The notes under the pieces were generated by a model that made no database searches, was not told where the DNA came from, and worked only from the letters and a program-made list of their open reading frames with translations. This document shows, in pieces, positions 16,381 to 28,669 of a stretch of 41,171 nucleotides of DNA. Both the position numbers and the translations under genes were made by a program. This DNA comes from Lentisphaerota bacterium. GTDB lineage: Bacteria > Verrucomicrobiota > Lentisphaeria > Victivallales > Victivallaceae. How positions within the stretch are numbered: the first letter of the stretch is position 1; each line of letters starts with the position of its first letter. The stretch lies in NCBI GenBank assembly GCA_015061695.1, contig SUWA01000015.1, forward strand, positions 1 to 41,171, given 5' to 3'.

Positions 16381-17070
16381 TCAATATTCGACATCGTCGA
16401 ATTTGATAAGTACGTTGAACGGGTCAAGGTTGGTTTGATCGGCAGATTTGATCGTATTGCTTCTGGCATCGCCACCCAGATACAGCGAGTTGATCGCAGT
16501 CGGATGGCAGCCGGTGGCACCGGTCTTGAGCACATTGGCGCGGGCCGTAGTCTGGTCAGCCCAGATGATCAAACCCGGGTTGTCGCGACCGGCAATTTCG
16601 CGCTTATGTTCACCGAGGCCGTTGGCTGCCGCCTGGGTCTTGTTCTGGAAGTGGGCAATGTAAGACATCTTGACATAGCCGCTGCCATCACCGAAAAGCG
16701 AACTATCGGAAGGACACTTGAAATACTTGCCGGCAATTTCTTTGGTCAGCTTGTTATCTTTGATCGTGCCGCCCAGATATCCGCCCAGGGCCAGTTTGTT
16801 GGCAGGCATTTCGGTATGGTTGGCTTCGTCAACAAAACTTTCAGCATAACCGGCACCAGTATCGGGATTGGCTCGGGTGGGGATATACCCACCTTTATTA
16901 TCACCGGCATACATCAAAGTAGCCGTGCCGATCTGTTTGAGGTTACTGATGCAATTGGCATTGCGGGCACGTTCGCGCGCGGCACTCAAGGCCGGCAGCA
17001 GCATGGCCGCCAGAATCGCAATGATCGCAATAACTACCAACAATTCAATAAGTGTAAACTGCTTCTTCAT
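16381..17070 (-). CDS. Type II secretion-like pseudopilin 1 (prepilin-type N-terminus)
   Basis: The 229-residue protein starts with the prepilin peptidase motif [20 protein letters not shown]: short basic leader, methylated Phe after cleavage, Glu+5, and a hydrophobic helix. [24 protein letters not shown] follows, as in the DUF1559-like and H-X9-DG pseudopilins abundant in Lentisphaerae and Planctomycetes. The C-terminal element [13 protein letters not shown] is a variant of H-X9-DG with GG in place of DG. Two cysteine positions (KCPSDS and the N-terminal C) also match its neighbour. Position between glycosidases suggests a role in presenting or exporting secreted enzymes, but this is inference. 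It is a paralogue of the upstream gene. Confidence 0.9.
16946..17010 (-). repeat. 65-bp perfect repeat (copy 1) in pseudopilin 1
   Basis: Identical base for base to 17682-17746 in pseudopilin 2, including all silent positions. It covers the end of the hydrophobic helix and the [13 protein letters not shown] region. The flanking coding sequence differs at many third positions. Confidence 0.95.
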
Positions 17071-17113: not shown

Positions 17114-17806
17114 TCAGTTTCTGTCCTGGTCGAATTTGTTGATAACATCGAACATATCCCAGTTCTGCTGATCGCTGAGTTTGACCACGTTGCCTTCCAC
17201 GTTGCCACCCAGGAACAGGGTGTTGATGCCGTTGGGGTGAATGGGGGTCTTGCTGCCTTTGTAAGCATTGATACGGCCGGCCGGCTGGTCATGGTAGATC
17301 ACCAGACCGGGACTGTCGGTACCAACGATGTTACGTTTCTTGAGGTTGGAATTGTAGTTTTCGATCTGGGCCTTGTTGTGGAAGTGGGCCACATAGCTGG
17401 TCAGGATCCAGGTGCTTTCCTGCACGCCGAACATGACACTGTCGGAGGGGCACTTGAACTGCTTGGCAATGATTTCTTCGGTGATTTTGCCATCAGTTAT
17501 GTTCATACCCATATAGCCGCCGAGGAGCAGTTTGTTGACAGGCCGTTCGGTGGCATTCTGTTCGGCGCGGGCATTTTCCGCCCAGCCGCAGGAGGCATCG
17601 CCGGGCATGTCGCGATCCGGTACATAGCTCTTGTTGTCGCCGGCATACATGGTAACACCAAGACCGATTTGTTTGAGCTGGCTGATGCAATTGGCATTGC
17701 GGGCACGTTCGCGCGCGGCACTCAAGGCCGGCAGCAGCATGGCCGCGAGGATAGCGATGATGGCGATTACCACCAAAAGCTCGATGAGGGTGAATTGTTT
17801 CTTCAT
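17114..17806 (-). CDS. Type II secretion-like pseudopilin 2 (prepilin-type N-terminus)
   Basis: The 230-residue paralogue of the next gene shares its first 48 residues almost completely. It has the FTLIELL prepilin processing site, one hydrophobic N-terminal helix (about 6-28) and then a globular periplasmic domain. The C-terminal motif is [16 protein letters not shown], the H-X9-DG-like element with GG. FKCPSDS is conserved in both. The AGGAAAG ribosome site is strong. It lies 43 bp upstream of pseudopilin 1 and downstream of the GH78 gene; a 160-bp gap separates it from GH78, so it may have its own promoter. The central regions of the two pilins have diverged, suggesting different partners. 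Confidence 0.9.
17682..17746 (-). repeat. 65-bp perfect repeat (copy 2) in pseudopilin 2
   Basis: Exact match of 16946-17010. Sequence on both sides of the block is only similar at the protein level. Confidence 0.95.
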
Positions 17807-24848: not shown

Positions 24849-25164
24849 TCTTTTTTCCGCTGGTTTAAGTGTTGCCGGCGGCACCCCACGGCAGGCAGGC
24901 ATTCCCCATTCATCTGCAAATCACAACAAGATACGTTGAAACTTGACAAAATTAGCAATAAAGATGCTTTTCTATCAACGATTGTGAGATATATAATTAG
25001 ATATTAAAGGCAATTTTCTTTTGTTTGTTCAAAATATATAATAAATTTTTCTTGCATTGCTGTTGTAATTTTGATTTCATATGGTATTTTATATCGTAAG
25101 TTGTACTGTGTATTTTGCGATGGCAAAATTTGAAAAATAGAAGTTTTTGTATGGGAGATTTATT
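24849..25164. other. AT-rich spacer before the restriction-modification pair
   Basis: Composition changes to strongly AT-rich at about 24920. It holds a perfect TATAAT at 24992-24997, with no good -35 box, and no gene of support. The spacer and the two following genes differ clearly in base use from the rest of the window. Confidence 0.6.
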
Positions 25165-25941
25165 ATGGCAAACATGTGGACTGATTTAAGTATAAGCCTG
25201 GCAAATCAGCGCAATTACCTTGATCTGCTTTTTCGAGTATATCCAACAATTCCGGAAGATTGTCGGGATATTGATCAAGTTCTTTGGAATAAGATTGAGC
25301 AGGCCTATAACAATCGAAATACCCAACAATTGATAATGAACTTGTTAAAATTAAATTTGTTTCCTGTTAAGGACTCATATGTTGCCTATTTGAAAAAGGA
25401 TACTGGTGCTATTGCCAGAAATCCAGAAACTGTGAATCGACTTGCCGGTAGAGTCTTTGAGATGGGGCTTAATAAACTGTTTGAGAAATGTTCAGAGCCC
25501 AAAGAAACAAATCGACAAATAGGACCTCTTTTCAAACGCTGGATCAATAGTGGAGCACTGGGAATTATGCCAGTTTCTTACAATGAATTCGTTAATGCTC
25601 GTTGTAATGCAATTTTTAACGGTTCAGATGCAGAGATGATGAAATTCGCAAGAGAGCATTTGGGATACTACCGGGACAAAGGTTTAGATTTTCTTGCGAA
25701 ATTTAATGGAAAATACATTATTGGTGAGGCTAAATTTTTAACCGATTTTGGTGGACATCAAAATGCCCAGTTTGCAGATGCAATATCTACCCTTGAGGCT
25801 GATTGTAATGCTATTAAAGTTGCAATTCTTGATGGAGTTTTGTATATTCCTGGTTCGCACAAACTATATAAAGGAATAACTGAAAGGGATTCGTATATCA
25901 TGAGTGCATTGGTTTTGCGCGATTTCCTTTATCAGGTGTAA
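25165..25941 (+). CDS. Type II restriction endonuclease (PD-(D/E)XK), Tsp45I-like
   Basis: The 258-residue protein starts at the ATG 25165, preceded by GGGAGA. The catalytic core is D175-x12-E188-A-K190 (GLDFLAKFNGKYIIGEAKFL), a PD-(D/E)XK nuclease centre. It is followed by GGHQNAQFADAISTLE and the ALVLRDF C-terminus. The whole resembles the Tsp45I family (cleaves GTSAC), but I recall this from memory and the recognition site is unverified. The methyltransferase gene begins 3 bp after its stop. Codon and base use is AT-rich, unlike the flanking core genes, supporting recent acquisition. Confidence 0.85.
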   Translation: MANMWTDLSISLANQRNYLDLLFRVYPTIPEDCRDIDQVLWNKIEQAYNNRNTQQLIMNLLKLNLFPVKDSYVAYLKKDTGAIARNPETVNRLAGRVFEMGLNKLFEKCSEPKETNRQIGPLFKRWINSGALGIMPVSYNEFVNARCNAIFNGSDAEMMKFAREHLGYYRDKGLDFLAKFNGKYIIGEAKFLTDFGGHQNAQFADAISTLEADCNAIKVAILDGVLYIPGSHKLYKGITERDSYIMSALVLRDFLYQV

Positions 25942-25944
25942 ATT

Positions 25945-27069
25945 ATGATGAGATTAGATTACGAAGGAAAAATACCGGAAGTAGAATTTTTGGCAAGACA
26001 TGCAGAATCTCTTCCAACAACAACCTTTTTACCAGCAAATAAGCTGTTACTTCAAGGTGATAACCTTGAAGTAATGCGATTTTTATTGGAAAATGGATAT
26101 GCGGGAAAAATAGACCTGGTTTATATTGATCCACCATTTGCAACAAACAATATTTTTACAATAGGCGAGAAACGAGTAAGTACAATTAGTTGTAGTAAGA
26201 GAGACAAAACAGCATATTCTGATAATCTTACTGGGATTTCTTTTATTGAGTTTATAAGACAGCGCCTTATCCTTTTGCGCGAGCTTATGTCAGAACGAGG
26301 ATCAATATATCTTCACATAGATTACAAAATAGGCCACTATGTAAAGATTATCATGGATGAAGTATTTGGAGAAAACAATTTTCGTAATGATATTACTCGA
26401 ATCAAATGTAACCCGAAGAACTTTTCGCGAAGTGCCTATGGAAATATAAAAGATCTGATACTTTTTTATAGTAAAGGTAAAAATCCCATTTGGAATGATC
26501 CCAGACAAGAGCTTGAAGATTCTGAAGTTTCAATTCGTTTTAATAAGATTAATTCCCAAGGAAGACGTTATACGACAGTGCCATTACATGCGCCCGGAGA
26601 AACTCTAAATGGACCTACCGGAGCCATGTGGCGCGGTATGTTGCCGCCAGAAGGAAGACATTGGAGATCAGTGCCAGAGGAGCTTGAACGTTTGGATTCG
26701 GAAGGATTGATTGAGTGGTCAAAGACAGGTAATCCACGCAGAATAATCTTTGCTGATGAAAGAAAATCTCAAGGAAAGAAAATGCAGGATGTATGGACTT
26801 TCAAGGATTCACAGTATCCGCAATATCCTACGGAAAAAAACCTTGATCTTTTGGAATGTATAGTAAAGGCATCATCCACACAAGAAAGTGTTATTTTAGA
26901 TTGCTTTTGCGGAAGTGGAACGACATTGGTCGCTGCAGAAAAAGCAGGAAGAAAATGGATTGGCATAGATCAATCAGAAGAAGCTATTCGTGTGAGCGAT
27001 TTACGGCTTTCCAATCAAATGGATATTTTTGCAGAACGGTATAGCAAATATGAGTTTGTTAGAAAATAA
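25945..27069 (+). CDS. DNA methyltransferase, beta class (motif IV before motif I)
   Basis: The 374-residue enzyme protects the host site of the adjacent restriction nuclease using S-adenosylmethionine. The catalytic motif IV is DPPF (62-65) near the N-terminus; the AdoMet-binding motif I DCFCGSGTT (from Asp319) is near the C-terminus, the beta-class order (type III/type II M.MboII-like). It is therefore an adenine-N6 or cytosine-N4 enzyme; DPPF favours adenine. Two ATG codons begin the frame (25945, 25948). Translation is probably coupled to the nuclease. It is AT-rich and sits directly after tRNA-Met. Confidence 0.92.
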   Translation: MMRLDYEGKIPEVEFLARHAESLPTTTFLPANKLLLQGDNLEVMRFLLENGYAGKIDLVYIDPPFATNNIFTIGEKRVSTISCSKRDKTAYSDNLTGISFIEFIRQRLILLRELMSERGSIYLHIDYKIGHYVKIIMDEVFGENNFRNDITRIKCNPKNFSRSAYGNIKDLILFYSKGKNPIWNDPRQELEDSEVSIRFNKINSQGRRYTTVPLHAPGETLNGPTGAMWRGMLPPEGRHWRSVPEELERLDSEGLIEWSKTGNPRRIIFADERKSQGKKMQDVWTFKDSQYPQYPTEKNLDLLECIVKASSTQESVILDCFCGSGTTLVAAEKAGRKWIGIDQSEEAIRVSDLRLSNQMDIFAERYSKYEFVRK

Positions 27070-27097: not shown

Positions 27098-27138
27098 CGG
27101 GCTGTTGTCAAACCTTATTTAAGGCAGGCAACAGCCCG
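27098..27138 (-). terminator. Terminator of the rubredoxin-rubrerythrin gene
   Basis: CGGGCTGTTG (27098-27107) pairs with CAACAGCCCG (27129-27138); on the minus strand TTTTGTATTTTG follows. An inner CCTT/AAGG hairpin sits in the loop. It lies 25 bp past the minus-strand stop and 29 bp after the methyltransferase stop, so it serves converging genes. Confidence 0.8.
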
Positions 27139-27162: not shown

Positions 27163-27696
27163 TCAATAGTTCTTGGCTTCGATTTCGAAGTAAGCACGCG
27201 GGTGTTTGCACACCGGGCAGAGTTCCGGAGCGCTTTCGCCAACGTGGATGTGACCGCAGTTGCGGCATTCCCAGCGGTTTTCGCCGACTTTGACCCAGAC
27301 TTCGCCTTTATCCACATTTTCGGCCAGCTTGCGGTAGCGTTCTTCGTGACGCTTTTCGATCAACGCCACGGCGGCAAACTGGGCGGCGAGTTCGTCAAAA
27401 CCTTCTTCTTTGGCCACTTCGGCAAAGTTCTTGTACATTTCGGTCCATTCTTCGTGTTCGCCGGCGGCGGCATCCAGCAGATTTTCGTAAGTAGTGCCGA
27501 TACCGTGGAAGGCTTTGAACCAGAGTTTGGCGTGTTCTTTTTCGTTATTGGCGGTGGATTCGAACAGCGCGGCGATCTGTTCGTAACCTTCTTTTTTGGC
27601 CTTGCTGGCGTAGTAGGTGTACTTGTTGCGGGCCTGCGATTCACCGGCAAAAGCGTACATCAGATTAGCTTCGGTCTTGCTTCCTTTGAGATCCAT
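27163..27696 (-). CDS. Possible internally initiated rubrerythrin
   Basis: Within the fusion gene, ATG 27696 (Met311) begins [20 protein letters not shown], which is the usual N-terminus of free rubrerythrin. Upstream is AGGAGAAGAAAACC (27697-27710), an AGGAG ribosome site with about 9 nt spacing, in frame. So a 177-residue free rubrerythrin could be made from the same mRNA, or the site may be a relic of a two-gene operon joined by loss of a stop. Expression is not shown by the sequence. Confidence 0.5.
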
Positions 27697-28626
27697 GGTT
27701 TTCTTCTCCTGTATTTGAGGTTCAATTTTTGTAAAGTCCGTTGCAGGGTGTTTACACAGCGGACAGGTGAAATCTTTTGGCAATTCGTCTGCGGTATGCT
27801 CGTAACCGCAAATATTGCATTTCCACACCGCCGGCGGCGGCATGAGGACAAATTTTTCGGCGCCTTTTTTACATTTGGGACAAATATAGTCCTCCGGAAG
27901 TTCCGCACCTTCGTAGATATACTTGCAAATACTGCACTTCCAGCGTTTGACCGGTACATCCGTTTTTGCTGCCGGAGCCGTTGCTGCGGCCGGGACTGCC
28001 GGAGCAGCCGGTACTGCGGCGTTGATCTGAACAAAATCCACCGCACCGTGCTTGCACAGCGGGCAGACGTAATCTGCCGGGAGTACAGAACCTTCGTAAA
28101 CATAACCGCACACCTTGCATTGCCAGCCGGATTGGCCGGCTACCGCTGCCGGCGCGGGTTTGATATGCTGCTGATAATAAGCGTAGGTAACGCTTTCGGC
28201 ACTGTCGGAAAGGATTTTCATATCCGTTATTTCGGCAACAAACAGTGTGTGACTGCCCAGATCCACTGAACCAGTTACCCGGCAGGAGAAACAGCTGTTG
28301 GCATCTTCGGTCAGATAATAGAGCCCGTTGCTGCTGCGCGGCAGTTCCAGCGATTGAAATTTATCGACCGCTTTTCCCGACTGGTAGCCGAAATGTTTGA
28401 AAACATCGAACTTGGCACTCTGCGACAAAACAGTTACATTGAATATTCCGCTTTCGGCCACCATCTGGCAGGTGAGATTTTCTTTGCAGACAGATACGCC
28501 CACTTGCAGCGGGTTTGATGCCAGCTGGGCAAAGGTGTTGACAATACAGCCGTTATCCCGCCCGCCGGAACGGGCCGTAAGAACATAAAGCCCATAAGGA
28601 ATTTTGAAAAGAGCTTGATTATCCAT
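27163..28626 (-). CDS. Flavin reductase / three rubredoxin / rubrerythrin fusion protein
   Basis: This 487-residue protein combines an N-terminal flavin-reductase (FMN) domain (about 1-150, as in high-molecular-weight rubredoxin, with [21 protein letters not shown] and [11 protein letters not shown]) with three rubredoxin-type domains. Their cysteine pairs are C170/C173 with C188/C191, C231/C234 with C249/C252, and C270/C273 with C288/C291. From Met311 a rubrerythrin follows: diiron helices ([32 protein letters not shown]) and a terminal rubredoxin ([10 protein letters not shown]...CPVCKHP). The expected role is NAD(P)H-driven peroxide or oxygen reduction in an anaerobe, with all electron carriers in one chain. 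GAGG precedes the ATG. Confidence 0.93.
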
Positions 28627-28669
28627 TTTTATCCTCTGTTGTATCGGGGCCTGCGCCCCCCCTTTTAAG

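Follow-up and report, generated by a model that had tools for sequence, protein, structure and literature searches.

A flavin reductase-rubredoxin-rubrerythrin fusion of a Lentisphaerota bacterium with a conserved Shine-Dalgarno site at the inner junction

Background

The in vivo electron donor of rubrerythrin is often unknown, and a natural fusion names this donor. In high-molecular-weight rubredoxin (Hrb) of the Moorella thermoacetica type a flavin reductase-like domain is followed by a rubredoxin, and the protein is fed by NAD(P)H (title cited in PMC9364112). According to a title cited in PMC12288474, Hrb and rubrerythrin are encoded together in Moorella. A second related design is found in the class F flavodiiron proteins FdpF of C. 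difficile (PMC6033852) and TvFDPF of Trichomonas (PMC9364112). In the accessible parts of both papers these are described as a self-sufficient combination of an NADH-oxidising flavoprotein, a short rubredoxin and a diiron reductase, with a flavodiiron instead of a rubrerythrin module and with NROR as C-terminal reductase; an internal start for the core is not reported in these parts. NADH-linked reverse rubrerythrins prefer H2O2 and also reduce O2 (PMC7482061).

Here we analyzed a fusion gene located on a contig of 41,171 nucleotides (the window). The assembly bearing it is 85% complete with a size of 2.65 Mb, and its nearest named relatives are gut bacteria of the Lentisphaeria/Victivallales. 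A literature search, with subscription journals mostly outside its coverage, revealed no publication that describes this fusion or an internal start within it. The architecture is apparently uncharacterised in the literature searched.

Results and discussion

Composition of the fusion gene

On the minus strand (28626-27163) the frame was open from ATG 28626 to TGA 27165-27163 and encoded 487 aa (Table 1). The initial annotation had described a flavin domain, three Cys4 rubredoxins and a full rubrerythrin with its own terminal rubredoxin in this frame, and both Pfam and NCBIfam agree with it. Pfam assigned Flavin_Reduct (E 2.3e-31), four RUBY_RBDX matches (total E 6.2e-43) and Rubrerythrin (residues 321-434, E 4.9e-24). 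The NCBIfam equivalog RuberyRbr spanned residues 312-487 with 288.6 bits against a cut-off of 200. A chance open frame is ruled out by these domain scores.

The closest solved structure to the N-terminal domain by sequence was the ferric reductase of Archaeoglobus fulgidus (PDB 1i0r, E 2.9e-29), which is, however, a stand-alone protein. Foldseek placed it among the top matches as well (rank 5, E 5.8e-16). As in Hrb, the FMN-type flavin reductase domain was followed by rubredoxin. In contrast to Hrb, which stands alone with its two domains and acts on a terminal reductase encoded separately, the chain runs on into rubrerythrin, and the fusions found here carry one to three short-spaced rubredoxins covalently joined to it. 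Neither the metallo-beta-lactamase and flavodoxin core nor the NROR domain of class F flavodiiron proteins was found in the Pfam/NCBIfam scans of the chain.

The four CxxC...CxxC units start at C170, C231, C270 and C454 with a spacing of 14, 14, 14 and 12 residues, respectively. All of them are short-spaced and of the rubrerythrin type; none is a classical rubredoxin of ~52 residues. The 16 rubredoxin cysteines and the diiron ligands had been reported as intact, which was confirmed. The ligands E329, E362, H365, E390, E393, E424 and H427 aligned with D. vulgaris rubrerythrin (1b71), where we take them to correspond to E20, E53, H56, E94, E97, E127 and H130, and they were invariant across 15 fusions. 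Residues 311-487 make up a complete classical rubrerythrin with a four-helix diiron domain, all Glu/His ligands and a C-terminal short-spaced rubredoxin, like that of D. vulgaris and that of C. difficile (9fj2, 62% identical). Unlike these, the fusion adds a reductase and an electron-relay arm at the N-terminus.

AlphaFold modelled the flavin reductase and the internal rubredoxins of the whole chain with confidence. The rubrerythrin part was poor (pLDDT 39-80; pTM 0.40) with only 15 aligned rows, so distances between the centres were not drawn from the model.

Table 1. Features of the fusion gene and of its surroundings in the window
Feature	Position	Strand	Basis
Complete fusion gene: flavin reductase - Rd - Rd - Rd - rubrerythrin - Rd	27163..28626	-	open frame; Pfam/NCBIfam; 5/5 genus genomes
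Weak Shine-Dalgarno AGAGGA of full-length start ATG 28626	28632..28637	-	sequence; duplex energy -5.8 kcal/mol
Flavin reductase domain of the Archaeoglobus ferric-reductase type, residues 8-157	28156..28605	-	PF01613; 1i0r
Rubredoxin unit 1, residues 168-201, Cys170-Cys191	28024..28125	-	RUBY_RBDX; CxxC-x14-CxxC
Rubredoxin unit 2, residues 229-262, Cys231-Cys252, after Pro/Ala-rich linker	27841..27942	-	RUBY_RBDX; CxxC-x14-CxxC
Rubredoxin unit 3, residues 268-301, Cys270-Cys291	27724..27825	-	RUBY_RBDX; CxxC-x14-CxxC
Internal Shine-Dalgarno core AGGAG, in frame (codons CAG GAG, Gln-Glu) and 9 nt ahead of ATG311	27706..27710	-	sequence; -7.4 kcal/mol
Codon of Met311, at which free rubrerythrin (residues 311-487, 177 aa) is predicted to start	27694..27696	-	alignment to 9fj2; conserved with SD
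Rubrerythrin diiron four-helix domain, residues 311-437	27316..27696	-	PF02915; NF045767 above cut-off; seven ligands invariant
C-terminal rubredoxin unit of rubrerythrin, residues 452-481, Cys454-Cys473	27184..27273	-	RUBY_RBDX; CxxC-x12-CxxC
Possible terminator: CGGGCTGTTG stem, ~21 nt loop, CAACAGCCCG, then TTTTGTATTTT	27098..27138	-	read by eye; absent from the scan's list, loop too long for the scan
DNA methyltransferase-like gene and likely restriction partner, next to the fusion gene on its downstream side, in convergent orientation	25147-27069	+	
Coiled-coil membrane protein, upstream of the fusion gene	29505-28870		named from sequence
NnrD/NnrE-like protein, upstream of the fusion gene	31098-29578		named from sequence

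Distribution and origin of the fusion

The fusion was present in all five genomes sampled from the genus, with three internal rubredoxins in two and two in three of them. It is ancestral in the genus, with the same upstream genes wherever flanks were read. Within the same family, two further genomes (G006 and G016) carried a fusion with one internal rubredoxin, and most other members a free rubrerythrin. The form with one internal rubredoxin occurred sporadically in anaerobes of the Bacillota, Bacteroidota, Planctomycetota, Spirochaetota and Verrucomicrobiota. At strict cut-offs, fusions were counted in 9/291 Clostridia, 1/295 Bacteroidales, 3/201 Negativicutes and 4/101 planctomycete-family genomes, where the counts include a few in-operon pairs or interrupted copies and the query genome each time. 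In the collection of named genomes, fusions were also found in Treponema, Muribaculaceae and others.

In total, 41 distinct fusions were obtained: 36 with one, three with two and two with three internal rubredoxins. The initial annotation had called the assembled wire unusual and proposed a domain-architecture search for the full order. For the number of rubredoxins this view stands, since two or three internal units look restricted to this genus (5 of the 41) and are a genus-level elaboration. The architecture itself is widespread, and its presence in at least five phyla rules out that it is unique.

To account for the fused state, the rubrerythrin tree requires 14 changes in all, of which at least five fall on well-supported branches, so that the fusion arose, moved or was lost several times. 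Repeated joining of reductase and rubrerythrin is probable from this. A hrb-rbr operon, as represented by the adjacent unfused pairs in L029 and L036, is the likely starting point.

Two near-identical fusions were found in an unplaced metagenome bin (L075) and in a genome that belongs to the phylum of the window but to a different family (L158, G083). They are placed among Bacillota sequences on the rubrerythrin tree, and recent horizontal transfer is likely. Two further fusions, L010 and L008, carried a single in-frame stop in the rubrerythrin domain (at ~5766 and ~5775, respectively) with otherwise intact halves; in L010, from a Muribaculaceae isolate, the stop is TAG.

The junction at Met311

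Of greatest interest in the gene is the conserved, putative start at the junction. Met311 aligned with residue 1 of the free rubrerythrin 9fj2, and the codons ahead of it are CAG GAG AAG AAA ACC. A junction ATG was present in 23 of the 41 distinct fusions, and each of the 23 had a strong Shine-Dalgarno sequence (SD) at the right distance. The SD energy at these sites averaged -9.7 kcal/mol and was never weaker than -7.4, compared with a mean of -1.7 kcal/mol at 129 other ATGs within the same genes, only 10 of which (8%) reached -5 or lower (Mann-Whitney p 3e-14). An SD-like motif anywhere in the linker was found in 23/23 fusions with and in 4/18 without a junction ATG. The mRNA was also more open at the junction, with 0.64 unpaired compared with 0.48 at the remaining internal ATGs (p 2e-8). 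In other rubredoxin-rubrerythrin fusions, led by hydrogenase, ferredoxin or rubredoxin, such an SD-ATG site was found in only 1/39. The inner SD was stronger than the SD of the full-length start in all five congeners and in G006.

Synonymous-codon shuffles with the protein held constant gave a combined p of 1e-4, with single genes mostly at 0.05-0.4 and the genes being related. As in nested-product genes, the in-frame start and its SD are thus conserved beyond protein constraint, the contribution of the codon shuffles being modest. The promoter scan listed no promoter just before Met311.

A second classical rubrerythrin was found neither in this 85%-complete genome nor in the congener genomes. 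That an internal start goes together with the lack of a separate rubrerythrin gene was not supported across lineages, where genomes without the internal start mostly lacked a separate rubrerythrin, too.

Alternative explanations

The full fusion, acting as a self-sufficient NAD(P)H peroxidase, could be the single product, with the junction SD-ATG as a silent relic of a former free rubrerythrin gene. The existence of unfused pairs is in line with this, and since the fusion probably arose several times, some junction sites may be left over from genes that were joined recently. Furthermore, 18 of the 41 fusions have no junction ATG, therefore the architecture does not depend on a second start. 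However, AGGAG-ATG was kept in 5/5 congeners despite a divergence of the flavin reductases in the genus of 0.4-0.85 changes per site, a changed number of rubredoxins and a codon identity of only 64% at same-residue sites (genus plus G006). In a Clostridia group of seven, which may comprise independent fusions, AGGAG was kept in 7/7 with a codon identity of only 49% at such sites. Depending on the species the core is read as KGE, QEE or QEK, and even within the Clostridia group both KGE and QEE occur; the bases are thus kept while reading frame and residues change. The SD codons also run contrary to the codon bias, as the window gene contains 39 GAA and 3 GAG codons, one of the latter lying in the SD (codon usage taken from the fusion gene and its locus only). 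Selection on the inner SD is favoured by four points, namely by the genus, by the Clostridia group, by the 39 other fusions and by the strength of the inner relative to the outer SD. We consider a single product with a silent relic unlikely.

It is improbable that the flavin reductase-rubredoxin part mainly serves another partner, such as a flavodiiron protein as in the case of Moorella Hrb, and that rubrerythrin is an independent enzyme which is only carried along. According to the title of Das 2001, which PMC12288474 cites, Hrb, rubrerythrin and FprA are encoded together in Moorella. Other electron routes exist in the genome of the window, since it also encodes a reverse rubrerythrin-like protein (L002), a classical rubredoxin (L175) and a weak NROR-like match (L178). 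Nevertheless, exactly these two modules were fused repeatedly in several phyla, which argues for direct transfer between them. The initial annotation had further named a sequencing error joining two genes at residue 311, and Met311 is indeed the natural first residue of a free rubrerythrin with its own SD. The identical in-frame junction was present in four further congeners, thus in five congeneric assemblies, and in dozens of other assemblies. An assembly or sequencing error is excluded by this, and its probability is negligible.

Proposed function

The explanation which we favour, with fair confidence, is an enzyme against oxidative stress in an anaerobic gut bacterium, a self-sufficient reductase of peroxide (and O2) with NAD(P)H, probably made as two nested proteins. 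Such a NAD(P)H-to-peroxide role had been proposed initially; it is supported by the sequence. The additional term self-contained is probably incomplete, as a conserved ribosome-binding site at the 311 boundary was overlooked. This site suggests that a free rubrerythrin is also made from the fusion gene.

We infer the following course. Ribosomes starting at ATG 28626 would make the 487-residue fusion, whose N-terminal flavin would be reduced by NAD(P)H. By analogy with class F flavodiiron proteins and NADH-linked reverse rubrerythrins, electrons should then pass one at a time along the short-spaced rubredoxins until they reach the C-terminal rubredoxin and the diiron site; the latter would reduce H2O2 and, more slowly, O2 to water. 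A point against this explanation is that centres of the rubrerythrin type usually lie far above flavins in potential. For the rubredoxins of rubrerythrins +185 to +280 mV are usual, and for the comparable short centre in FdpF of C. difficile about -110 mV is given in PMC6033852. As the internal units resemble the FdpF centre in place, a downhill path from flavin via internal and terminal rubredoxin to the diiron site is plausible.

Ribosomes may also initiate at the internal SD-ATG (27710-27694), which would yield a free rubrerythrin of 177 residues. Rubrerythrins work as head-to-tail oligomers, so fusion chains would be expected to assemble with free subunits, few reductase arms feeding many diiron sites. 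The free form could either join such an oligomer or take electrons from the separate rubredoxin of this genome.

That the fusion originated repeatedly, and in several phyla, points to Hrb-type flavin reductases as the physiological reductases of rubrerythrin there. Should initiation at the internal site be real, it would show how donor and enzyme are joined while free enzyme is still made in excess, and would make the gene a simple and testable example of a fusion keeping an old start site under selection. The second product would escape gene finders and protein annotation. Tentatively, we propose that several lineages of gut anaerobes fused the genes independently and that the inner ribosome-binding site is under selection for a fixed ratio of wired to free subunits in mixed peroxidase oligomers. 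The arm would later have been lengthened in the genus by added rubredoxins.

Neighbouring genes and other donor fusions

The order of the two upstream genes, encoding the coiled-coil membrane protein and the NnrD/NnrE-like protein, was unchanged in the flanks read, which came from three congeners. The methyltransferase/restriction-like pair had no counterpart at the congener loci read. Elsewhere in the window, two tandem pilin-like genes (17114-17806 and 16381-17070, minus strand) had near-identical N-terminal signals and different tails.

Other donors were joined to rubrerythrin as well. In L030 (1472-3520) Pfam identified a [FeFe]-hydrogenase in one chain with a rubredoxin-rubrerythrin-rubredoxin tail. 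Eight further proteins (L038, L040, L043, L045, L053, L055, L058 and L060), from Lachnospiraceae/Oscillospiraceae as L030, shared its length (~680-720 aa) and Cys layout. Proteins of this type are possible hydrogen-fed peroxidases. A further independent donor was seen in chains of 385-460 aa, where 4Fe-4S ferredoxin-type domains were joined to rubredoxin-rubrerythrin; for L042 (5634-6788) and L068 (3307-4593) this is according to Pfam, and L057, L061, L065 and L070 had similar lengths.
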